A stretch of DNA of 64,000 nucleotides. Origin: Actinomycetota bacterium (GTDB taxonomy: Bacteria; Actinomycetota; Acidimicrobiia; IMCC26256; PALSA-610). The stretch is from assembly GCA_003134555.1 (NCBI GenBank), contig PLBO01000134.1, positions 1 to 64,000 on the forward strand. Reading direction: 5' to 3'. This document shows, piece after piece, positions 4,331-30,440 of this stretch. Made by a program: the position numbers and the translations under genes. The number at the start of each line of letters is the position of its first letter. Within the stretch, counting starts at the first letter, position 1. Below the pieces are notes generated by a model that saw only the letters and a program-made list of their open reading frames with translations, was not told where the DNA came from and ran no database searches.

Positions 4331-6810
4331 TTCGGCTGGTCCACCTCGACGATCACGGTTTCGTCGCCCTTCAGCCCCTTGGTGATCTCGATGTAGGAGC
4401 CCTCGGTGAGGCCGGTCGTCACGGGCACCTCGGTGGTGCGTCCCTTGTTCGCGAGGTTGATCACCCGCACGACGTCCTGGCCGGAGCCGTTCTGCTTCAC
4501 CGCCGCGATCGGAACCGTGAGGGCGTTGGTCTTCTGTTGCACCGTCACGTCGATGCTGACCGACGCGCCGTCGGCCGCGCCGAGATCGGCGACAGTGATC
4601 TTGCCTTCGTAGACCTGTTGCGCGGTGCCGCCCGGTTGGACCGGGGTCAGCGACGTCAGGTTCTGGTCGAGCTCCGAGATCACGCCCGGCGATTCCTTGT
4701 CGCCGCCCGTGAGCTTGACGGTGCAGTTCTGCCCGACTGCCAACTTGGTTCGGTTCGACGCCGACGCTTGCAACGTGACTGTGAAGTTGGGGTCGGTCAG
4801 CGAGAGCACCGGGGTGCCGGGAGGGAGCGGATCGCCTTCCTTCACGAACACCTGACCGATGCGAATGGGCCATGAACCGACGATCATGTCGGTCGGTAGG
4901 AACGCGACATCCTTGCGGATGGAGCGCAGCGTGACGGATACCGACAGTTGGCCCGCGTGCAACAGCGCGGTTCCGACGAGCGGGTCGAAGTCCTGTCCGG
5001 GTTGGGCGGTACCGACGACCTGATATCCGACCGACGTGTCCTTGACCGGTGCCTGATCCGCGTGGATGGTGAACGTCGCCGCACCGCCCACGGGCACGGT
5101 CGTCGTGTTGGAGGTGATCGTCAACTTGGGAATGTTCTGCGACGAGATCGTCACCACCGTGGTGTTCGGCGACCCGACGCGGTAGTTCGCGCTCGCGGCC
5201 ACGGAGACGACGAGGATGCGATCCGGCGTGACGACGTCGTCCAGAACTGTTGGCACCGCGACCGGCAACGAAGTGGTGCCGGGCGGAATGACGATGCTGC
5301 CGCCGGGAACCGTGAAGTCGGTGCCCTGGGTCGCGTTCCCGCCGTAGCTCAAGTTGATCGTGAGCGCGGTGCTCGTCGCGGCGCTCAACGAGATCGTGAC
5401 GGCGTACGGCTCGCCTTTTGCCAGATGCGTCGTCGCCGAGCGCAACGTGACGACCGGGAGTGCGTCGTCGCCGCTCGGCCCGAGGATCGTGACCACCGCG
5501 GCGCCGGGTGATCCGACCCGGTAACCGGCGGCGGGCGTGAGCGCGGCCACGATGTGCCGGTCGGGTTGGATCGTGTCGCTCGTGAGCGTGTCGATCTGGA
5601 TGGTTGCCGACGTGTGCCCCGCGCGCATGACGACCGTCGGGTTCACCGACCGGTAATCCGTGATCGGGGTTGCGTCGCCGGCGAAGGCCAGGCTGATCTG
5701 CGTGTCGCGCAACGGTGCCTGGTCGGCCCTGATGGTGAGGACCCGCGAACCGCCGGGCGTGACGCTACCGCCGCCGTCGATGTGCATCTCGGGCAGGTTG
5801 TTGTCGACGATCGTCGTCTGGGCTCGGTTCGGCGAACCGACGTTGTAGCCGGTGCCCGCCGCCAGCGCGAGCGTGAGTGACTTGTCGGGCTTCACGAGGG
5901 TGTCGACGCGCGTCGACACCGTCACCGCCACCGAACGCGCGCCGGCCGGGAGCGTGACCACCGACGGCGGGACCACGATGTCGGCGCTTCCCGCGGTTCC
6001 GCCCGTGGTCAGACGGATGTCGATCGGGCCGGCGCTCGTCGTCGACGCGTTGATGACGAACGTCGCGGGCGTTCCCTGCGAAACGGTCGCGGCGGCCGAC
6101 TGGATCGTCAGCGACGGGACCGGCCCGGCCAGGCCACCGACGCTGCGGAAAGCGGCGAGAATGGCCGAGGTCCGGCCCGTCGTCGCGCTCCTCGCCGCGG
6201 CCGCACGTGCGCCGGTGCCGGGCGGACCGATGATGAGGCCCGCGCTCGACTGCGCACCGATCGTGTAGCCGGTGGACTGCGCGAGCGACACCGACACCGT
6301 CTGCGCCGTGACCGGCGTCGCGCCGGGATAGTGGTTCGCGGCTTGCCATTGCGCGAGCGCGAACCGCGTCGCTTCGGTGAAGGTCGCGTCCATCGGGCCC
6401 GGGTTGTTGCCGGAGGCGGCCAGGATCTCCTTGAGCTGCACGACGTCGTCGCCCCGATCGCCCACCGTGAGGGGCCGGAAGAACGCCAGGGTGCCGGGCT
6501 CCGCGATTGCGTCGCGTCCGTCGATCGCGAACAGCGATTCGCCGGCCTGCGCCGTGCTGCCGTCCTTCGCGAACACCGCGCTCACGCGACCCTGGGCGAC
6601 GCTCGTGACCTTGCGTTGCTCTTGGCGCGCGAGCGTTCCCGTCAACGTGACCTTGTCCTGCAGCGTGCGCCGCTGCACGTCGTCGAGGATGATGAGGTTC
6701 TTGCTCTTCGACGTGGACGAGTCACCCCACGCCGCGTAGCCCGCGCCCGCCGCCGCGACAACAGCCACCGTCACCGCGATCGCGGTGAGAACCTTCCCGT
6801 TCCTGGTCAT
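4327..6810 (-). CDS. Membrane-fusion (HlyD/MacA-like) adaptor with peptidoglycan-binding and Calx-beta domains
   Basis: I place the start at ATG 6810, two bases after the stop of the upstream lipoprotein gene; this gives 827 residues. Order: membrane anchor (about 7-27), first half of a biotinyl-lipoyl-like domain (about 53-98), a PG_binding_1-type segment (about 112-158, LTVGDRGDDVVQLKEIL), four Calx-beta-like repeats (about 232-620), then the second lipoyl half and beta-barrel regions typical of HlyD/MacA proteins (IRIGQVFVKEGDPLPPGTPVL; LTVPIAAVKQ). In usual adaptors a coiled-coil hairpin sits where the Calx-beta array is found here. It probably couples the MacB-like ATPase/permease to the cell wall or an extracellular substrate. 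Domain identity is strong, function inferred. Confidence 0.85.
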   Translation of the reverse strand: MTRNGKVLTAIAVTVAVVAAAGAGYAAWGDSSTSKSKNLIILDDVQRRTLQDKVTLTGTLARQEQRKVTSVAQGRVSAVFAKDGSTAQAGESLFAIDGRDAIAEPGTLAFFRPLTVGDRGDDVVQLKEILAASGNNPGPMDATFTEATRFALAQWQAANHYPGATPVTAQTVSVSLAQSTGYTIGAQSSAGLIIGPPGTGARAAAARSATTGRTSAILAAFRSVGGLAGPVPSLTIQSAAATVSQGTPATFVINASTTSAGPIDIRLTTGGTAGSADIVVPPSVVTLPAGARSVAVTVSTRVDTLVKPDKSLTLALAAGTGYNVGSPNRAQTTIVDNNLPEMHIDGGGSVTPGGSRVLTIRADQAPLRDTQISLAFAGDATPITDYRSVNPTVVMRAGHTSATIQIDTLTSDTIQPDRHIVAALTPAAGYRVGSPGAAVVTILGPSGDDALPVVTLRSATTHLAKGEPYAVTISLSAATSTALTINLSYGGNATQGTDFTVPGGSIVIPPGTTSLPVAVPTVLDDVVTPDRILVVSVAASANYRVGSPNTTVVTISSQNIPKLTITSNTTTVPVGGAATFTIHADQAPVKDTSVGYQVVGTAQPGQDFDPLVGTALLHAGQLSVSVTLRSIRKDVAFLPTDMIVGSWPIRIGQVFVKEGDPLPPGTPVLSLTDPNFTVTLQASASNRTKLAVGQNCTVKLTGGDKESPGVISELDQNLTSLTPVQPGGTAQQVYEGKITVADLGAADGASVSIDVTVQQKTNALTVPIAAVKQNGSGQDVVRVINLANKGRTTEVPVTTGLTEGSYIEITKGLKGDETVIVEVDQPK

Positions 6811-6812
6811 GT

Positions 6813-7550
6813 CTATCCGCCCGTGCCCGTCCCGGAACCGGCGTCCCTCTGAGCTTCGGTCGCGCATTGGGTGACGTCGTTACTCGACAAGATGTCCTGG
6901 CCCGGAGGCGGAGTGAAGTTCGGTACCGAACCGCCGCCACCGGCGCCGAACGAGAAGAGCCGGCCCTTCGCATCGGGCTTCGGCTTGGGAATGCCCCAGC
7001 CTCGGCCGATCATGCAGTCGCGCCACTTCAGGAAGCCCTTGTTCTGGAGCTCGATCTGCGCCGGAGTCAGGTTGTCCTGCGCGGTCTGCTGGTCCTTCAG
7101 CGCCTGCACGATGTTGCTCTTGGCCGCGCACGTCGAGAGCGCCTTGATGTAGTCGGGGTTGTTCGCGGGCGAGTTGGGTTTCGACGAATCCGGGATTCCG
7201 ATGAACTTCACGCCCAGTCCCCCGAGGCAGGTCGAAAAGACATTGAGCGCTTTGAAGAACTTCGTGGTCGGATCTTCCTTGGCGAGCGGGACCGCACTGC
7301 CGGATGCGGCGGTTGCACCCGGGGAGGCCGGAGAGTTCGCGACGGCAGCCGACGACGGGGGCCGCACCGCGCCGTTCTTGGTCACCTTCCAGCCGGGCGG
7401 GAGCTGGATGTCGACCTGACCGGCGGAGATCACGTTCGACGACGTCGGCTTGGAGCTACCGCCGCAGCTCGATACCGCGAGAACGAGCGCGACGAGGGCC
7501 ACAGCTGCGAGGCGCGACCGGATACCGCGACTCTTGGATTTCCCCCCCAT
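6813..7550 (-). CDS. Lipoprotein associated with the MacB-like exporter
   Basis: A 245-residue protein with a basic N-terminus, hydrophobic core and lipobox (AVSSC, Cys at about 29), so it is probably lipid-anchored outside the membrane. The mature part carries Cys-Gly motifs such as CLGGLGVKF and WRDCMIGRGWGIP, a pattern seen in actinobacterial lipoproteins encoded beside HlyD/MacB exporters, and ends in a Gly/Thr tail. It is the first gene of the adaptor-ATPase-permease operon. A -10-like CATACT lies six bases before the ATG with no Shine-Dalgarno, so the transcript may be leaderless. No enzymatic motif is visible. Confidence 0.8.
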   Translation of the reverse strand: MGGKSKSRGIRSRLAAVALVALVLAVSSCGGSSKPTSSNVISAGQVDIQLPPGWKVTKNGAVRPPSSAAVANSPASPGATAASGSAVPLAKEDPTTKFFKALNVFSTCLGGLGVKFIGIPDSSKPNSPANNPDYIKALSTCAAKSNIVQALKDQQTAQDNLTPAQIELQNKGFLKWRDCMIGRGWGIPKPKPDAKGRLFSFGAGGGGSVPNFTPPPGQDILSSNDVTQCATEAQRDAGSGTGTGG

Positions 7551-7679
7551 GCCGGAAGTATGGCGTAACGGAGCGTTAGCTCGCCGTTAGCTGTCCGCTT
7601 AGTGCAGTTCGGGACTTGACGTGCGCCCGTTTCTGCGCGCTTCTAGGGTTCGACACGACCGATTCCGGAGGGAAGGTCC
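7551..7679. promoter_or_regulatory. Divergent promoter region between exporter operon and two-component system
   Basis: The 129-base gap holds a minus-strand CATACT close to the lipoprotein ATG and a plus-strand TAGGGT at 7644-7649. The latter would give a leader of about 25 bases that contains GGAGGGAAGG before the response-regulator ATG. The arrangement would allow the regulator to control both directions; no clear direct-repeat operator was identified by eye. Confidence 0.5.
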
Positions 7680-8336
7680 ATGCGTGTGTTGCTCGCGGAG
7701 GATGACGCGGCATTGGCCGACGTCATCGCGCGTGGACTGCGCCGAGAGGCGATGTCGGTCGACATCGTCCGCGACGGCGGCACCGCCTTGGCCAAAGCTC
7801 GCTCGATCGAATACGACGTCATCGTCCTCGATCGCGATCTGCCGGTGTTGCACGGCGACGCGGTTTGCGAAGCACTCACCGGGTCGGGCGTGCTTACTCG
7901 GATCCTCATGGTCACCGCGTCGGCTGCTATCGAAGAACGCGTAGAGGGCCTCGCGCTCGGGGCCGACGACTACTTGCCGAAGCCGTTCGCGATGTCGGAG
8001 CTTGTCGCGCGCATACGTGCCCTCGGACGGCGAGCGCTGCGCGCTCGACCGAAGGTCCTGTCGTGGGGCGACGTCTGGCTCGATCCGGCGTGCCGGCGCG
8101 CCGGTCGCGGCTCCAAGGAGCTTCGGCTCACGAATCGAGAGTTCGCATTGCTCGAGCAATTGATGGTGGAACCGGGCGCCGCCTTGAGCGCGGAGGCGCT
8201 GATGGAACGCGTCTGGGACGACCGGCTCGACCCGTTCAGCAACATCGTTCGGGTGACCGTGTTGACGCTGCGGCGCAAGCTCGGTGATCCGGCTGTCATC
8301 GAGACGGTGCCGCGAGTCGGATACCGGCTGGCTTGA
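7680..8336 (+). CDS. OmpR/PhoB-family response regulator
   Basis: This 218-residue regulator has a receiver domain (1-115) with acidic pair E7/D8-D9, phospho-acceptor D51 (VLDRDLP), T79 and K101 (YLPKPF), followed by a winged-helix DNA-binding domain ending in the typical RRKLGDPAVIETVPRVGYRLA region. All catalytic positions are present. It is followed 15 bases later by its histidine kinase. It faces the exporter operon divergently, so control of that operon is the simplest prediction. Confidence 0.95.
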   Translation: MRVLLAEDDAALADVIARGLRREAMSVDIVRDGGTALAKARSIEYDVIVLDRDLPVLHGDAVCEALTGSGVLTRILMVTASAAIEERVEGLALGADDYLPKPFAMSELVARIRALGRRALRARPKVLSWGDVWLDPACRRAGRGSKELRLTNREFALLEQLMVEPGAALSAEALMERVWDDRLDPFSNIVRVTVLTLRRKLGDPAVIETVPRVGYRLA

Positions 8337-8351
8337 GATGAAAGGCCTGAC

Positions 8352-9572
8352 GTGAAAGTACGTCTTCGCCTTGCCCTGATGATGATGCTCGCGTTGCTGG
8401 GTGCGGGCTCGATTGCGCTCCTCGTAAACGCGATCACTTTCCAGGACTCGACCTACAAGAGTCCGATCGCCTTCACCGACGCGCTCCTCGCCGAGCTGCA
8501 CGTCGACCGCGCTGCCGCCGAGGCCTACGTGAAGGCCCATCCCGAGGTGCTGTTCGAGTCCGACACGTCCGGCAGCACTCCGACCGGAGTATCGGTGAAC
8601 GCCGCTTTCCAGGACGTGCAGCACCGCGTGCAACGTGACGCGGTGAACCGCTCGAGGACCTGGACCGCGATCGCGATCGGTGTGCTCGCGATAGTCGCGG
8701 GACTCGTCGGTTGGCTGATCGCGGGCAGAGCTCTGCGACCGATCCGGCTCATCACGAGGCGCGCCCGGTCCGCGTCCGCAAACGACCTCTCGGTGCGGGT
8801 CGACCTCGAAGGACCGAACGACGAGCTCAAGGACCTGGCCGATACCTTCGACGACATGCTGGACCGTCTCGACCAGTCGTTTGTCGCCCAGCGACGCTTT
8901 TCCGCTCAGGTCTCGCACGAGCTTCGGACGCCGCTCGCCATCGTGCGCAGCGAAGCCGACATCCTGTTGGCCGAAGGCGAGAGTGAGGCGAGCCGCGCGA
9001 CGGCCGAGAACATCAAGACCGCGACGTTGCGCGCCGAGCGGATCATCTCCGCGTTGCTGGCGCTGGGGCGTGCGGAAAGTGGCCGGATCGATCATTCCGT
9101 CATCGCGCTCGACGAGCTCGTCGGTGAAACCGTGGCGGAGGTCCTCGAAAATCGGCAGTGGCGCGACATCCGCTTCGACGTCGAGCTCCATCCGGTCGCG
9201 CTGCGCGGGGACCGCGCGCTGATCGATTGCCTCGTTCGCAACCTGATCGACAACGCGGCGCGCCACAATCACCCGGGCGGCTGGGTGCGAATTCACGTCG
9301 GAACCGACGATGCCGGTTTCGCGACCATCGAGATCGCCAACTCGATGGCTCCACGAGAGGCGCGCGCGGTCGACAGTCACGGCATCGGTCTGACTGTCGT
9401 CGCGGCCGCGGCCGCCGCGCACGGCGGATCAGTCGAGCGCGAGGCCGCGGATCCGGAGAGGGTTGTCACGCGCGTGCACCTGCCGACCGGCGACATATCG
9501 CAACGCGACGACGAGCCGGCCGCGTCGGCGTCGCCGGCTGCCTCGTCTTCTTTCGTGACCGACGTGGCCTAG
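8352..9572 (+). CDS. Sensor histidine kinase
   Basis: A 406-residue kinase with two membrane segments (about 8-28 and 103-125) enclosing a short extracytoplasmic sensor, then HAMP (about 125-175), HisKA with phospho-acceptor H189 (SHELRTP), and a GHKL ATPase with N-box N297/N301 (RNLIDNAARHN) and G2 box HGIGL (343-347). The usual DxGxG (G1) box is not recognisable: the position reads IEIANSMAP. ATP binding may therefore be atypical, or the lid is shortened. It is paired with the upstream response regulator. Its TAG stop and that of the convergent PadR gene share one CTAG. Confidence 0.93.
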   Translation: MKVRLRLALMMMLALLGAGSIALLVNAITFQDSTYKSPIAFTDALLAELHVDRAAAEAYVKAHPEVLFESDTSGSTPTGVSVNAAFQDVQHRVQRDAVNRSRTWTAIAIGVLAIVAGLVGWLIAGRALRPIRLITRRARSASANDLSVRVDLEGPNDELKDLADTFDDMLDRLDQSFVAQRRFSAQVSHELRTPLAIVRSEADILLAEGESEASRATAENIKTATLRAERIISALLALGRAESGRIDHSVIALDELVGETVAEVLENRQWRDIRFDVELHPVALRGDRALIDCLVRNLIDNAARHNHPGGWVRIHVGTDDAGFATIEIANSMAPREARAVDSHGIGLTVVAAAAAAHGGSVEREAADPERVVTRVHLPTGDISQRDDEPAASASPAASSSFVTDVA

Positions 9573-23251: not shown

Positions 23252-23635
23252 ATGAACGACGAGAACACCGGTGCGGGCGGCACGATGTCGTCGTCACGCC
23301 TGGCCCAGTTCGAGGCGGAAGTCGCCAAGCTGAAGGTGACGGGCGGGGGCGCCAATCCCGAGCGACTCGGGTCGCGCTGGGGCATCGGTCTGACGATCGT
23401 CGGGTTCGTCGTCGCGGTCATCGCGTGGTTCAGCGCGAAGGACTCGGCCGACGTCAACACCATTCTGCGCTCCGAGATCTTCGCCTTCATCGGTGTCGGC
23501 ATTGCCGTCGTCGGGATCGTGATCTGGGTGCGGAATTCGCTGACTCGTTACATGCGCTACTGGATCATCCGGTTGGTATACGAACAGCGCGAACAGACCG
23601 AGCAGCTCATCCAGGCCCTGCGCGACAACAAGTAG
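23252..23635 (+). CDS. Small two-helix membrane protein at the end of the Liv operon
   Basis: 127 residues from ATG 23252 behind GAGGAG. The N-terminal 35 residues are hydrophilic, then two membrane helices (about 45-62 and 80-97) separated by a short loop, and a cytoplasmic Arg/Glu/Gln-rich helix (YEQREQTEQLIQALRDNK). No known family. The 13-base gap from livF suggests cotranscription, so it may be an accessory membrane component of the importer. Confidence 0.7.
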   Translation: MNDENTGAGGTMSSSRLAQFEAEVAKLKVTGGGANPERLGSRWGIGLTIVGFVVAVIAWFSAKDSADVNTILRSEIFAFIGVGIAVVGIVIWVRNSLTRYMRYWIIRLVYEQREQTEQLIQALRDNK

Positions 23636-23657: not shown

Positions 23658-25373
23658 TCAGCGGATCGGCACGTTCAGGACGCCCGGGGTGTCGACGAGG
23701 CGCCCGTCGAGTACCTGCAGCACTTGCACCAGCATCTGGTATTTCCCGGCGATGGGAATCGTGGCGCCGTTCGTCAGGAAGTGGTTCGGGCCGGCGCGCA
23801 CGAGGTTCGCGGGAACGGTTGTCGAGCGGTCGGTGCTCACGAGCTTCGCCGACATGTCGCGGATGCTGAGGTCTTCTCCCTTGGGCGTGAGCGTGTAGAC
23901 GTGAATCGTGTTCAGCCCGACGCGGGCCGGATCGATGGTCACGTTGATCGTCATCGCGCTCGCGCCGGTGCCGGCGCTGACGGTTCCCGAGAACAGCTTG
24001 GGTGCGAGCTCGCTGCGCGCCGGTTGTGCGTTCACGAGCATCGCCGTGATCGCGAGCACCGCCAGGCCGAACACGACCTCGCCCGCGACCGGGCGCCGCA
24101 GGCCGGCGACGGTTCGTTCGTCGATTGCGGCGATCGCGGTGTCAGGGGCCTCGAGTGGAGCAGTTCGGTGCTTGCGCACGATTGAACGACTCGCGGCCGC
24201 GAGGCCGACGAGCACGACGACGACGCCCAGCTTGATCAAGAGGAGGTGGCCGTAGGTGGTGCTCGTGTAGCCCCGGAACACGAACCCGACTTCGCGCCAC
24301 GACGCGAACACGCCCGTCAGCACGAGCACGACGACACACCAGAACGCGATGCGCGAGAACGTGGTCAACGCGCGCCGCAGCCCGCCACTGAAACCGCCGC
24401 CGAACGCGGCGAGAACGAGCACGACCAGGCCGCCGAGCCACACGCTCATCGCGAGCACGTGGATCGTGTCGAGCGGCACCGCGAAGATCGTGAAGTCGCC
24501 CGTCGCGGCGTGCCCCGCGTACCCGGGCGTGCCGGCGAGACCGATCGCGACGACCGCGGCCGTGACCATCCACCAGATCGGGGCCCCGCGCCTGCGGTCG
24601 AGGAGCCCGAGAAACGCCAGCAGCACCAACGCGCCGACGAGCAGCAGCAGCCTGACCTCGGTCACGTGACCGAAGCGCGTCTGCAGGACGTCGTGGACGA
24701 CCGACCATTTGGCCGCATCACCGAGGCCCGAGCCGGCCGCGTACGGACCCTGCAGCATCAGCGCCGCGACGGTCGAAACCGCGAGCACGATCCAACCGAT
24801 CCAGATGGAGCGGCGCGTCGCTCGCGCCGCGCTCGTTCCGCCGGCGATGAGCAGGAGGAACACCGCGCCGCCGATCAAGAGGGCGAGACCGATGAACACT
24901 CCCGCCCGAGCGACCCCGAACAGTGCTCCCACCGTCACGCTGCTCTTGGCCGTCGTCTCGGTCGCGCAACCGCTCGCCGTCGGCGGAGGCCCGGGTCCGA
25001 TGCGGAGTGAGTACGTGCCGCCGACGGGATGCGAGTCGGCCGAGATGACGTGCCACACGATCAGGTAGATGCCGGGTGCGAGCTTCGGGACCGACACGAC
25101 GACGGTGTGACCGTTCCCGGGCGCGTGACGGGGGGAGCCGGCCGTGATGCGTGAGCCGGCGCAGGTGTAGACGCGCACGGCACCGAACGAGATCTCGACG
25201 TTCTCGCTGTACGTCAGGGAAAGCTCGGGCGGAGACTCGGCCGCGACGCCGTCCTTGGGTGGATCCGTGCTGTTCAATACGGCGTGGGCCCACGCCGGGG
25301 CGGCATTCGCGACCAGGATGATCCCCGCGAGCGCCGGCACGACGCAGAGCCGAGCCAGGCGCCCTGCTCTCAT
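23658..25373 (-). CDS. CopC-CopD fusion, copper-binding and transport protein
   Basis: 571 residues from ATG 25373 (possibly leaderless: TATTGT nine bases upstream). A signal peptide ends PAWA, so the mature protein would begin at H30 (HAVLNSTDPPKDG), the N-terminal Cu(II) ligand of CopC proteins. The CopC beta-sandwich runs to about 125 and includes WHVISADSHPVGG. Eight or so CopD membrane helices follow (about 150-440), and a C-terminal extracytoplasmic beta domain (about 455-571). Likely role: copper capture outside and passage across the membrane. Adjacent YcnI-like and His-rich membrane proteins reinforce a copper context. Confidence 0.88.
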   Translation of the reverse strand: MRAGRLARLCVVPALAGIILVANAAPAWAHAVLNSTDPPKDGVAAESPPELSLTYSENVEISFGAVRVYTCAGSRITAGSPRHAPGNGHTVVVSVPKLAPGIYLIVWHVISADSHPVGGTYSLRIGPGPPPTASGCATETTAKSSVTVGALFGVARAGVFIGLALLIGGAVFLLLIAGGTSAARATRRSIWIGWIVLAVSTVAALMLQGPYAAGSGLGDAAKWSVVHDVLQTRFGHVTEVRLLLLVGALVLLAFLGLLDRRRGAPIWWMVTAAVVAIGLAGTPGYAGHAATGDFTIFAVPLDTIHVLAMSVWLGGLVVLVLAAFGGGFSGGLRRALTTFSRIAFWCVVVLVLTGVFASWREVGFVFRGYTSTTYGHLLLIKLGVVVVLVGLAAASRSIVRKHRTAPLEAPDTAIAAIDERTVAGLRRPVAGEVVFGLAVLAITAMLVNAQPARSELAPKLFSGTVSAGTGASAMTINVTIDPARVGLNTIHVYTLTPKGEDLSIRDMSAKLVSTDRSTTVPANLVRAGPNHFLTNGATIPIAGKYQMLVQVLQVLDGRLVDTPGVLNVPIR

Positions 25374-25472
25374 GTGCCGGTCACAATACGACCCAGCGTC
25401 CCTTGGCTCGATGCGGGCTCCTCGGAGCGAGCCGATGACCGGCGCGAAGGGCGCGCGCCGTAGCGTGTCCGC

Positions 25473-26999
25473 GTGCGCTCGTGGGTCGCGATCCGAATCG
25501 CCGCGGTTGCGGTCGGGGCGATCGCGCTCGTCGGGCTGGCCGCCCCCCCCGCGTCCGCGCACACGATCTCCGGTCCCCGGCCGACGAACTACCGCAGCCG
25601 GGTCGTCGCGATCGCGCCGGCGGTTCCGGGTATCAGCGCGCGCATCGTCGATCTCGGAACCCGGTTCGAGCTCACGAACCGCAGCTCGACCGAGGTCACC
25701 GTGCTCGGGTACGAGGACGAGCCGTACCTCCGCGTCGGGCCGAACGGCGTATTCGAGAACCTGCATTCGCAGGCGACGTACATCAACCGCACGCGCGCGG
25801 GCTCGACCGTTCCAGTCGGAATCGACACTTCTCCCACTGCGGCGCCGGAGTGGAAGAAGATCTCCGGCGGTCACACGGCTCGTTGGCACGACCACCGCAT
25901 CCACTGGATGAGTCCGCAACCCCCACCCTTTGTCGCGCAGTCACCGGGCAGCTTCCACCATCTTTCGCAACAGAACATCGTCCTCCTCCGGAACGGGGAG
26001 CGCGTCGCCATCGCGGTCTCGCTCGATTGGGTCCCGGGGCCGAGTGGGGTTCCGTGGATCCCGCCGCTCGTCGTCCTGTTCGTGGTCGGTGTGCTCGTCG
26101 CCGTGGTGCCGAGGTGGTGGCGTCTGCTCGCGGTTCTCGTCGGAGTGCTCGTGCTTTCCGACATCGCCCACGCGATCGGATTCGAGATCCCGCGGCCCGG
26201 TGGCAACGTGACGAAGGTCGTCCAGTTCGTCGGCGGCAGCTTTGTGTCGATCGCGATATGGATCGCCGCGGTGCCCACAACGATCGCGCTGCTCCGCCGC
26301 CGTGCGGAGGCGCTCTACGGCGTGGTCTTCGTCGCGTTGCTCGTCGCGCTGATCGGTGGGGCGACCGATCTCTCGGCGCTGTGGAAGTCGCAACTGCCCG
26401 ATGCCGGTCCCGCCTGGCTCACACGCGCGGAGGTCGTCGTTACGCTCGGCCTCGGGGGCGGACTCGTCGTCGGCGCGCTCGTGCGCATGCTCCGTAGCCG
26501 AACCGTCGCCGCCGACGACGGCCGGCGACAATGGCTCTCGCTCCTCGTCTCGGGTCTCTCCGACGCCGAGCTCGCCCAGGTCGTGCGGGAGCTCGACGTC
26601 GACGACGTGCTCGAGGTCGCGCTCCGGGAGCTCGCGGCCCGATTCGCGCCCGTGGCCGACGCGTTCGCCGACGGGTCGCTCGCGTTCGTCGTCACCGACC
26701 AGGACGTTCCTGCCGTATGGTCCGTCGCGCGCAACGCCTCGCCCAACGTCTCGCCGAACGACGCAACTCCAGGCCTACGAGCGGCGCGTGGCCGCGTCGA
26801 ACCGGTTGCCGCCGAGATCCGCGCTCCGTTCGCGGTGACGTTGCAGGTGCTCGCAGGCACGCTCGCCGTCGACGACGCCGTCGCCCGCGCGCTGATCCTC
26901 ATCACGGGCGACGCCGCGTTCGTCGCGCGGTTGGCGCCCTACATTCCCGAGGCGCCCACGGTCACTCCGGCCCGGGAGGATCCGGCGTCCGCTTCTTGA
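25473..26999 (+). CDS. Uncharacterised membrane protein with predicted mature N-terminal histidine; putative copper protein
   Basis: 508 residues from a probably leaderless GTG (TAGCGT six bases upstream). A signal peptide ends PASA, leaving H30 as mature residue 1, as in CopC. The exported domain (30-195) has EDEPYLRVGPNGVFEN and a His cluster H134, H139, H141, H144 (WHDHRIHW) plus H162/H163. Five or so membrane helices follow (about 197-345), then a cytoplasmic domain (350-508) of no known fold with GLSDAELAQVVRELDVDDVLEVALRE-like helices. Flanked by CopC-CopD and YcnI-like genes. A copper role is inferred from context and His placement; I do not recognise the family. Confidence 0.75.
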   Translation: MRSWVAIRIAAVAVGAIALVGLAAPPASAHTISGPRPTNYRSRVVAIAPAVPGISARIVDLGTRFELTNRSSTEVTVLGYEDEPYLRVGPNGVFENLHSQATYINRTRAGSTVPVGIDTSPTAAPEWKKISGGHTARWHDHRIHWMSPQPPPFVAQSPGSFHHLSQQNIVLLRNGERVAIAVSLDWVPGPSGVPWIPPLVVLFVVGVLVAVVPRWWRLLAVLVGVLVLSDIAHAIGFEIPRPGGNVTKVVQFVGGSFVSIAIWIAAVPTTIALLRRRAEALYGVVFVALLVALIGGATDLSALWKSQLPDAGPAWLTRAEVVVTLGLGGGLVVGALVRMLRSRTVAADDGRRQWLSLLVSGLSDAELAQVVRELDVDDVLEVALRELAARFAPVADAFADGSLAFVVTDQDVPAVWSVARNASPNVSPNDATPGLRAARGRVEPVAAEIRAPFAVTLQVLAGTLAVDDAVARALILITGDAAFVARLAPYIPEAPTVTPAREDPASAS

Positions 27000-27657
27000 A
27001 CTGCTCGACCCGCGCGTGCAACTCGGCGTCGCGGTTGGTCTCGTCGCCGTCGATCTCGTCCTCGTCGTCTTGGTCGCGACCGCGTGCGCGCCACGCCCGG
27101 AACGAAAGGACCCCGGCCATGACGGCGCCGATCCCGACGAGTGCGACACTCGCGATCGTCACGGCCGAGGGGCCCTTCGACCCGGACGCGGCCGGCGGCG
27201 GTTTCACGCCCGCGTAGACGATCTGTCCCAAGGCCCGGTCGCTCGCGTTGTTCGGGTCGGGCGTCGACCGGGCGACGACCTTGCCGTCGGCCGCTCGTTG
27301 CACGACGGAGATGCCGAACGCCCCTCGGGTCGGCGCGGTGACGCCGAGCGAGAAGTACTTGCACGCGAAGGCCGGGATCGGTCCGCCGCGATAGCGCACG
27401 CTCGATCCTCGGCGCGTGAAGGTCCAGCCGGCCTTCGGGTCGACGCGCTCGAGCCGGAGTCCGGCCGGGACACCGATCTCGACGTCGGGAACAGCCGTGG
27501 CCTCGACGGTCACGCCGACGCTGATGGTCGACGATTGCCCCACGGGGATCTCCGCCGGGAGGGGGCAGATGTGTGCCGACGCGGGTGCGACGGTGAGGGC
27601 GAGCGTGGCTCCGGTTGCGAGGGCCGCCGCGAGCGCGAGATTCGCCAACCGACGCAC
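26962..27657 (-). CDS. YcnI-like (DUF1775) membrane-anchored protein
   Basis: 231 residues from a probably leaderless GTG (TAGCGT seven bases upstream). The signal peptide ends PASA, so H29 becomes the mature N-terminus (HICPLPAEIPVG), matching the mono-histidine copper site described for YcnI proteins. A beta domain extends to about 150, one membrane helix lies near 165-190, and the tail is highly charged and cytoplasmic. Cys residues in HICP and FACKYF could form a disulphide. It converges with the 508-residue membrane protein gene, overlapping it by 38 bases. DUF1775 membership is by pattern only. Confidence 0.68.
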   Translation of the reverse strand: MRRLANLALAAALATGATLALTVAPASAHICPLPAEIPVGQSSTISVGVTVEATAVPDVEIGVPAGLRLERVDPKAGWTFTRRGSSVRYRGGPIPAFACKYFSLGVTAPTRGAFGISVVQRAADGKVVARSTPDPNNASDRALGQIVYAGVKPPPAASGSKGPSAVTIASVALVGIGAVMAGVLSFRAWRARGRDQDDEDEIDGDETNRDAELHARVEQFKKRTPDPPGPE

Positions 27658-27742
27658 GCGGCGCACGCTATCTCCGGGCCCGGGCCCGCTCCGGCACGCC
27701 TCCCGACCGGCGGCGCGGGAGGCGAATCGGTACGCTCGGGTC

Positions 27743-28315
27743 GTGCGCATTCGCTTGCTCGTACCCGTTTCCGTCTCACTCGCCCTCGTGCTCGCGGCCT
27801 GCGGCGGCAGCTCGAAACCCTCCGCGAGCCCCACGACCCCGCAGGGCCCGACCACCACCGTCCACCGCGCGACGCTGGCGTCGAACGTGCCGTCGGTGTC
27901 GGCGAAGATGATCTGCACGCCCGAGGCGCAAAAGGAGATATACGACAGCGCTACGGGCGTGAAGACGATCGCGCCCTTCAAGCCGACGTGGGTCGACCAC
28001 GTGTACTCGTGCGACTACGTCTACCCCGGCGGTGCGACGATGCGCCTGTCGGTCAAAGAGGTGTCGAGCGTCGCGGAGACAACGGCCTACTTCGATTCGC
28101 TCGCGACCAAGCTGCACAAGACGGATGCGCGCTCCGGCCTCGGGCAGGGCGCCTTCCAGGTCCGTGACGGATCGCTCGTCGTCCGCAAGGACTTCAAGAT
28201 CCTGTTGATCGACGTCACGAAGCTGCCGGCCCAGTTCGGCGTTCCGGCCGACACGCGCGCGAACGTCGCCATCAACGTCGGCGTGACGATCATGGGGTGC
28301 TGGACCGGGGCGTAA
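27743..28315 (+). CDS. Lipoprotein of unknown function next to the copper cluster
   Basis: 190 residues from a probably leaderless GTG (TACGCT six bases upstream). A signal peptide ends in lipobox VLAAC followed by a Ser/Thr/Pro linker. The mature part has ICTPEAQKEIYDS, HVYSCDYVYPGG and a terminal GCW, with three Cys that could pair. It diverges from the YcnI-like gene with an 85-base gap holding both -10-like elements. No enzymatic motif; copper involvement would rest only on position. Confidence 0.75.
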   Translation: MRIRLLVPVSVSLALVLAACGGSSKPSASPTTPQGPTTTVHRATLASNVPSVSAKMICTPEAQKEIYDSATGVKTIAPFKPTWVDHVYSCDYVYPGGATMRLSVKEVSSVAETTAYFDSLATKLHKTDARSGLGQGAFQVRDGSLVVRKDFKILLIDVTKLPAQFGVPADTRANVAINVGVTIMGCWTGA

Positions 28316-28397
28316 TCCGCAACCCGGGCGCGGGCGTTTCCCACGACCTACGGTGGTGCGGCCGAATGCATCGGCGCCCCAACGGGAGGCAGGTGGA

Positions 28398-30440
28398 GTG
28401 TCCGTAGTCGTCATCGTGGCCGTCGTTGTGGTCGTCGTGCTCGCGGCGATATGCATTCTTCAGTCGATCCACTCCATCGGTCCGGTCGAGGTCGGCCTCG
28501 TCCAGAAGCGGTTCTCGTTCAAGAAGCTGCCCGCCGACAACCCCATCGCGTTCCACGGTGAGGCGGGTTACCAGGCCGAGCTGCTGACGGCGGGCCTGCG
28601 CTTCAAGTTGTGGCCGGTCTTCGGTGTGAAGAAGTTCCCGTGGGTGCAAGTGCCGGCGGGCGAGATCGGTGTGGTGATCGCCCAAGTGGGCAAGCCGTTG
28701 CCGATCGGTGCCAAGAGTGCGAACTACAAGCCGGAGTTCGAGAACTTCTCCGCGCTCGAGAGATTCATCGACGACGGTGGCCAAAAGGGCGTGCAACGTC
28801 CGGTCCTGACGCCCGGCACCTTGCTGCCGATCCATCCCGTCGCGTTCATGGTGGTGACGTCGCGCAAGGTCTACGGCCTCCCGGTCTCGCCCGACGTGTC
28901 GGAGCGGGCGCGTGCGACGGGAGGTGTGCTGCGTCCCGACTCGTTCGGCCTGACACCCGAACAGCTCCAAGTCGTGGTCATCGCGCCGCGCGGCCCGCAG
29001 GACATGATCGGCATCGTCACGACGCTCGAGGGCCCGCCGTTGCCGTCGGGCGACATCGCGAGCCGCCTCGGCGGATACGACGACATCGCGCGCATGGAAC
29101 AGGCGGCGGAGGCCCTGCAGGACTCCGAGGTCATCGAGGTCCTGCTCGGCTCGAAGAACGACCTGCACAACAATTACCAGGACTTCCAACTCTTCTTGGA
29201 GGCAGGCGGCCACATCGGGCTCCAGCACGATCCGCTGCTGTACGGCGCGTATCTGTTGAACCCGTTCCTGACCCGCGTCGAGATGGTCCCGATGCTCATC
29301 GTCAACCAGGGCGAGGTCGCGGTCATCAAGGCTTACGTCGGCTTGCCCACGCTCGACACGTCGGGCGAGGAATTCAAGTTCGGCTCGATCGTTCATCCCG
29401 GCCACCGCGGCATCTGGAGCGAGCCCCTCCGTACCGGCAAGTACCCCATCAATCCACGCGTCTACGCGGCCGAGATCGTCCCTACTTCGATCCTCACCCT
29501 CAACTGGGCCGACGCGGTGTCGACCGCGCACAACCTCGACGCGCACCTCTCGCCGATCGAGGCCAAGAGCCGCGAGGGTTTCGTGTTCAAGATCGACCTG
29601 CAGGTGCAGATCCACGTACCCGACACGCGTGCTCCGAAGGTCATATCGATGGTGGGCACGATGCAGAACCTCGTCAACGAGGTCCTGCAGGCGGCCGTCG
29701 GCAACCACTTCCGCAACACCATCCAGGATCTCGAGGCGGTTCGGTTCATCGAGACCCGGCCGGAGGTGCAGGCCAGTGCACTCGACGCGATCCGGACATA
29801 TCTGGCCGCGTACGACGTCGAGACGCGCGGCGTCTACATCCAAGACGTCGACTTCCCCGACGCGCTCGTCGAGGTACTGACCCAGCGCGAGATCGCGAAC
29901 CAGGAGAAGGAGACGTACGCGGAGGAGGAGCGCGCCGAGATCGCCCGGGTCGAACGCGAGAAGGCAAAGGGCACGGCCGACATGCAGGCCCAGCTCGCGC
30001 AGTCGGCCGTCGGGATCGAGATCAAGAACAACGAGGCGCAGGCGCGCGAGGCGCAGGCTCGAGGTGAGGCCGCATTCGTTCGGTTGACCGGTGAGGCCGA
30101 GGCGTCGAAGACGCAGGCGATCGGTCTCGCGGAGGCGAAGGCGACCGAGGCATTGGGTCTCGCGCGGGCCGCCGGTTTCCAGGCGCAGACCGAAGCGCTC
30201 GGTCAGACCGCAACCGCGCTCGTCGCGGTCGCCAACGCCGTCGCCGACGGCCACATCACTGTCGTGCCCGAAGTGCTCGTCGCCGGGGGCGGTGGCGCGA
30301 TCGAAGGTTTGGCGGCGACCCTCATGCGGACGCTCGGCGCGGGCGGCAACGGAAGCCGCGGTCGCCGGTCTGCCGACGAGCCGCCCGACGCGCCGGTCGA
30401 AGTCGACGCGGTCGAAGGGGTCGAGACTCCCGCGAGCTGA
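28398..30440 (+). CDS. Flotillin-like SPFH/band-7 protein (680 residues)
   Basis: Start at GTG 28398 behind GGGAGGCAGG; a TACGGT -10-like element is at 28349-28354. An N-terminal membrane helix (residues 2-23) is followed by a long N-terminal region, then an SPFH domain (about 290-490, with FKIDLQVQIHVPDTRAPKVI), and an Ala/Glu-rich coiled coil (about 500-590, EEERAEIARVEREKAKG) and a Gly-rich tail. It is much longer than the stomatin-like SPFH gene at 57402. Flotillins scaffold membrane microdomains; the extra N-terminal 250 residues resemble neither a protease nor NfeD. Confidence 0.82.
   Translation: MSVVVIVAVVVVVVLAAICILQSIHSIGPVEVGLVQKRFSFKKLPADNPIAFHGEAGYQAELLTAGLRFKLWPVFGVKKFPWVQVPAGEIGVVIAQVGKPLPIGAKSANYKPEFENFSALERFIDDGGQKGVQRPVLTPGTLLPIHPVAFMVVTSRKVYGLPVSPDVSERARATGGVLRPDSFGLTPEQLQVVVIAPRGPQDMIGIVTTLEGPPLPSGDIASRLGGYDDIARMEQAAEALQDSEVIEVLLGSKNDLHNNYQDFQLFLEAGGHIGLQHDPLLYGAYLLNPFLTRVEMVPMLIVNQGEVAVIKAYVGLPTLDTSGEEFKFGSIVHPGHRGIWSEPLRTGKYPINPRVYAAEIVPTSILTLNWADAVSTAHNLDAHLSPIEAKSREGFVFKIDLQVQIHVPDTRAPKVISMVGTMQNLVNEVLQAAVGNHFRNTIQDLEAVRFIETRPEVQASALDAIRTYLAAYDVETRGVYIQDVDFPDALVEVLTQREIANQEKETYAEEERAEIARVEREKAKGTADMQAQLAQSAVGIEIKNNEAQAREAQARGEAAFVRLTGEAEASKTQAIGLAEAKATEALGLARAAGFQAQTEALGQTATALVAVANAVADGHITVVPEVLVAGGGGAIEGLAATLMRTLGAGGNGSRGRRSADEPPDAPVEVDAVEGVETPAS

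Follow-up and report, generated by a model that had tools for sequence, protein, structure and literature searches.

What does an unannotated membrane protein do between two genes for putative copper proteins? A 64,000-nucleotide stretch of an actinobacterial genome (the window; GenBank assembly GCA_003134555.1, contig PLBO01000134.1, positions 1 to 64,000) encodes, side by side, a CopC-CopD fusion, a 508-residue membrane protein and a divergent YcnI-like protein. An earlier note on this DNA had claimed that all three open reading frames place a His directly after an AxA signal end, and we found this arrangement in each of them. An N-terminal His is already expected in CopC and YcnI, and it is therefore the 508-residue protein, whose gene lies at positions 25473 to 26999 of the plus strand, that makes the arrangement informative. 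We propose, with a probability of about 0.6 and on the strength of sequence comparisons, that it holds copper outside the cytoplasm as a partner of the CopC-CopD (YcnJ-like) importer.

Homology searches indicate that the 508-residue protein is a member of a real, widespread and undescribed actinobacterial family. It falls outside every Pfam and NCBIfam model, the matches obtained being due to chance, and its description as an unrecognised membrane protein holds. Within Pfam, it matched neither the CopC model (at E values up to 10) nor DUF1775, and no HupE/UreJ permease domain was found. A literature search for its motif returned nothing relevant. A PDB sequence search likewise gave chance matches, and hits to designed beta-trefoils (best E = 6.5e-5) were set aside as sharing a common YLRIxPDG hairpin rather than kinship. 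A scan of genome contigs yielded 80 loci, nearly all of them actinobacterial or unplaced, with one record labelled Thermoanaerobacterales; 78 sequences were aligned. Each of the 14 genomes of the window's taxonomic family has one copy. The family is also present in 41 of the 46 genomes from the order, and 31 of 197 genomes drawn across the phylum Actinomycetota, roughly one in six, have it. On a Pseudonocardia plasmid, a homologue seems to consist of two domains in tandem, with a degenerate motif in the second one, and lies beside a galactose-oxidase-like gene (L085 5926-7038 and 3371-5770).

The protein of the window starts with a predicted Sec signal peptide ending in PASA (residues 1 to 29; positions 25473 to 25559, plus strand, as for all its features). 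It is followed by a predicted extracytoplasmic beta-sandwich domain (residues 30 to 195; 25560 to 26057), modeled confidently by AlphaFold2 as a beta-sandwich over residues 30 to 190 with a mean predicted local distance difference test (pLDDT) score of 92.8, and by about five putative transmembrane helices (residues about 198 to 340; 26064 to 26492), recognised from hydropathy and as helices of the model, with a predicted topology. The proposed core metal site is the segment WHDHRIHWM starting at W138 (25884 to 25910). In the 78 aligned sequences, N96, W127, W138, H139, D140, H141 and H144 are invariant, and G79, Y80, E83, Y85, G92, S99, N105, R142, I143, W145 and M146 are nearly so; the HDHxxH residues are also invariant in all 14 sequences of the taxonomic family. 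Within the span H134 to H144, whose conservation the earlier note had proposed to check, H139, H141 and H144 are thus invariant, but H134 is not conserved.

The signal end is conserved as well, with A29 invariant and A27 present in at least 90% of the 78 homologues. Cleavage sites were assigned by the -3/-1 rule together with homologue conservation, and the signal end APPASA^H30 makes His30 (25560 to 25562) the predicted first mature residue. The A29-H30 pair is invariant in the 14 sequences of the taxonomic family, ten of which come from outside the window's genus. Of the 77 aligned homologues scored at mature position 1, 46 have His there and 25 have Asp, the other 6 having a different residue. 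In Nocardioidaceae and in a large Acidimicrobiia/Nitriliruptoria group, His gives way to Asp, Gly, Asn or Glu, and many of these copies are still beside CopC. His is rare at this position in general, representing 2.6% of the SignalP 6.0 training set (PMC12537917); we used this published value as background, our own count (0 His in 52) being crude and small. The His state changes only four times on the family tree, and in the 36-row clade that holds the window only five Nocardioidaceae rows lack it. With 46 of 77 homologues having His and so few changes, the residue is inherited rather than a product of chance. The expected conservation of His30 thus holds in the taxonomic family and breaks down in the wider one. 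As Asp replaces it in a third of the homologues while the rest of the motif is intact, the alignment argues that an N-terminal His cannot be essential family-wide.

Genes for copper proteins are strongly associated with the family, as the earlier note had anticipated. In the phylum sample, CopC is present in 102 genomes, 30 of the 31 that have the family and 72 of the 166 that do not (p = 4e-9), and DUF1775 in 13 of 31 versus 23 of 166 (p = 7e-4; Fisher tests, which ignore shared ancestry among genomes). In 14 of the 31, about 3 kb or less separates the genes for CopC and for the family protein. In the order, 40 of 46 genomes have CopC and 24 of the 41 family copies lie within 1.5 kb of it; of these, 23 share the head-to-head layout of the window. 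A YcnI gene often adjoins the family gene, and a named Iamia plasmid carries a metal island in which the family gene is found with cupredoxin, CopD, CDF transporter, ArsR, DUF1775 and DUF305 genes. Iterated profiles for CopD and zf-HC2 caught unrelated hydrophobic helices, and their counts were dropped in favor of single-sequence matches. Independent pairs on the tree were too few for an association test between His at position 1 and adjacency to copper genes.

From the conserved cluster and this context, we infer that the outer domain binds metal and that the metal is copper. The protein would be exported by Sec and cleaved at PASA^H, leaving an outward-facing beta-sandwich held by about five membrane helices. 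The invariant HDHxxH cluster would probably form the core copper site, with the free N-terminal His30 probably an extra ligand in the window's lineage. On the outside of the membrane, this domain would keep Cu(II) bound and exchange it with CopC through the His1/Asp/His site of the latter, thereby feeding import via CopD. This scheme is modeled on YcnI-YcnJ of Bacillus subtilis, in which Cu(II) exchange takes place between YcnI and the CopC domain of YcnJ (PMC12154828). The fusions to DyP and cupredoxin and the adjacent sigma factor genes, both described below, also count in its favor, and a further precedent is SigC, which prevents copper starvation in Mycobacterium tuberculosis (PMC7924339).

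Several observations weigh against a copper-holding partner of CopC-CopD. Genome-level co-occurrence partly reflects shared ancestry. Seventeen of the 41 copies in the order are not beside CopC, one family-positive genome of the phylum sample (G169) has no CopC, and the neighbors of CopC-less copies share no common metal theme or metal genes. DyP peroxidases and cupredoxins, which are partners of some family members as described below, are also found in iron uptake systems (EfeUOB). Lastly, none of the solved structures is a convincing relative of the outer domain, and its fold thus lends no support to the function: a fold search gave no clear PDB relative (best Z, 5.0), with AmoB/PmoB chains at Z 3.6 to 4.0 among unrelated Ig-like rows.

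A closely related possibility concerns the nature of the site. Histidine braces bind copper in CopC and in lytic polysaccharide monooxygenases, and the earlier note had suggested an undescribed histidine-brace copper membrane protein. The undescribed family and its link with copper genes stand, whereas the brace is on less firm ground. In a true brace, the amino and imidazole nitrogens of His30 would bind copper together with one of H139, H141 and H144, and the lineages with Asp at position 1 would be derived losses. This explanation overlaps with that of a copper-holding partner and specifies its site. His as the first mature residue, a hallmark of such sites, is found in the 508-residue protein, according to the -3/-1 rule and the conservation of A29-H30, but not in the whole family. 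The invariance of His30 in the taxonomic family and its inheritance speak for a brace, for which HDHxxH would provide the second ligands. In contrast, Asp occupies position 1 in those 25 homologues whose motif is otherwise intact, and mature residues 1 to 4 stay below a pLDDT of 50 in both AlphaFold2 models, so that the models do not place His30 relative to the cluster. We consider a true brace a tentative proposal, with odds somewhat below even; a strict brace may exist in the window's lineage without being required by the family.

Some family members are fused to other domains. A DyP peroxidase is part of the same polypeptide in 11 of the 78 (L014, positions 6035-8911, L015, L020, L007, L012, L018, L019, L021-L023 and L025), and cupredoxin models match 3 of the 78. 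The Catenulispora-type protein L014 combines the family domain, DyP and cupredoxin in one chain. A gene for a cupredoxin-like lipoprotein, identified by its His/Cys/His/Met pattern, comes next in Catellatospora (L019), Hamadaea (L018) and Longispora (L007). By analogy, these partners suggest redox chemistry alongside transfer. They also raise the possibility of a component of EfeUOB-type iron oxidation and uptake whose domain binds iron, as the fused peroxidase matches TIGR01412, the model of the EfeB-like iron-uptake deferrochelatase/peroxidase, and a cupredoxin gene is adjacent. However, CopC-CopD is encoded immediately upstream of the Catenulispora fusions (L014, L015, L020), and the association of the family with CopC at genome level likewise disfavors iron. 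Peroxidases of this kind also occur in copper trafficking, DtpA belonging to a copper-trafficking operon in Streptomyces (PMC4736821). We therefore regard a role in iron uptake as improbable.

The protein might instead be a copper sensor or regulator that conveys an outer copper signal to an adjacent pair of extracytoplasmic function (ECF) sigma factor and probable zf-HC2 anti-sigma factor controlling copCD. About ten loci (L099-L102, L006, L009, L033, L042, L048, L090) have ECF genes, of one similar kind, beside the family gene, and some of these loci also encode a probable zf-HC2 protein close by. In the examined cases with gaps of about 1.4 kb between the family gene and CopC, the gap contains an ECF sigma factor gene, Pfam-confirmed in several, upstream of the family gene, and a probable zf-HC2 anti-sigma factor, below the Pfam cutoff, on the CopC side. 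Nevertheless, there is no adjacent ECF gene in the window or next to most copies, and the DyP and cupredoxin fusions suit metal handling better than sensing, which makes a sensor an unlikely explanation. Least likely of all, to our mind, is a copper enzyme (an oxidase or monooxygenase-like protein) using the site for catalysis, for while the invariant Trp/His-rich cluster, the existence of His-brace enzymes and the galactose-oxidase-like gene next to the Pseudonocardia homologue would fit it, the fold searches matched no known enzyme clearly and the partner that recurs is an importer, not a pathway for a substrate.

The 508-residue protein also has a separate C-terminal domain, predicted to be cytoplasmic (26505 to 26996, plus strand), as the earlier note had surmised. 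It adopts an SCP2-like fold in the model: it matches 3bdq with Z 8.9 over 98 aligned residues (root-mean-square deviation, 3.3; Foldseek probability, 1.00; E = 0.018), and several other SCP2 chains match as well. The likeness extends to the fold, identity being about 20%; unlike those domains, it is the predicted tail of a membrane protein. Confidence is lower here, with pLDDT values mostly of 50 to 70. Alignment of the tails shows it only in genus-level relatives, and homologues outside the genus stop earlier or continue differently.

The copCD gene (23658 to 25373, minus strand; Pfam CopC, E = 2e-17; CopD, E = 1.8e-18) encodes the predicted YcnJ-like importer. It is separated from the gene of the 508-residue protein by a divergent intergenic region of 99 bp (25374 to 25472), in the head-to-head layout conserved in the order. 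Its N terminus reads MRAGR...AAPAWA^H30, and the codon of His30, the predicted first mature residue, is at 25284 to 25286 (minus strand). We take the Cu(II) ligand set of CopC to be His1 of the mature protein and the Asp and His of ADxHP. This set is complete here, with His30 and an ADSHP sequence at residue 112 (Asp113 and His115).

The gene of the YcnI-like protein (26962 to 27660, minus strand) predicts a signal end VAPASA^H29, with the His29 codon at 27574 to 27576. Further AxA sites are present a few residues upstream of the chosen ones in this protein and in CopC. Its score against DUF1775 (PF07987; E = 0.086, 13.6 bits) does not reach the curated cutoff of 25, and its assignment comes from its alignment with the DUF1775-type proteins of relatives' loci. 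Of the three ligands of the monohistidine brace, His and Glu are retained and Trp is lost, with VVARSTPDP at the position where relatives have VVRWIE; His and Trp are kept in about 95% of DUF1775 proteins (PMC8424229). Thus, the N-terminal His can be considered an established type of copper ligand for CopC, as had been claimed, but less so for this divergent protein. Elsewhere, the same genome (G000) has another divergent stretch of YcnI type as well as a DUF1775 protein of the canonical kind, at C52:10228-10674 and C2:63314-63754, and a second CopC. In the window, the YcnI-like gene and that of the 508-residue protein overlap tail to tail by 38 bases (26962 to 26999). The three genes are flanked by those of a small membrane protein (23252 to 23635), a probable lipoprotein (27743 to 28315) and a Band-7/SPFH protein (28353 to 30440), an order kept in close relatives (L003; partly L002 and L004).

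The 508-residue protein resembles the CopC domain, including that of YcnJ (PF04234), in having a secreted domain with an N-terminal His after AxA, a link to CopD and a copper context. It differs from it by the lack of a CopC match, the location of HDHxxH on the WHDHRIHWM segment instead of an ADxHP sequence, and a replaceable His30. With YcnI (DUF1775), it shares the N-terminal His, a membrane anchor and a position as neighbor and likely exchange partner of CopC-CopD, whereas YcnI, with no sequence match to it, has His, Glu and Trp as ligands and is anchored by just one helix at its C terminus. The anglerases Ang-1 and Ang-2 (PMC12537917) also present an N-terminal-His outer domain on a membrane domain, and Ang-2 occurs in Actinomycetota too. 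However, they have a nickel-type HupE/UreJ permease and a 100% conserved N-terminal His, while the family described here has neither and a copper context; they were set apart on these features rather than by direct sequence comparison. Lastly, DtpA/EfeB-type DyP peroxidases are fused or adjacent partners in Catellatospora, Catenulispora and relatives, but the window protein has no DyP domain and DtpA of Streptomyces lividans is a separate protein.

Little is known about the way in which Gram-positive bacteria collect copper and hand it on at the outside of their membrane, YcnI-YcnJ being one worked example. The family predicts three invariant histidines, one replaceable N-terminal His and a CopC partner, and its natural His/Asp variation at position 1 offers a probe of what the N-terminal His adds to a copper site. 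It may, although we put this at rather less than an even chance, represent a type of extracytoplasmic copper site that has not been described before, in which a beta-sandwich without a clear solved relative has an HDHxxH core tuned by the N-terminal His in a lineage-dependent manner. It would then form a third outer-face part of CopC-CopD-YcnI import in Actinomycetota, and in some lineages a DyP peroxidase and a cupredoxin would have been built into the same chain.

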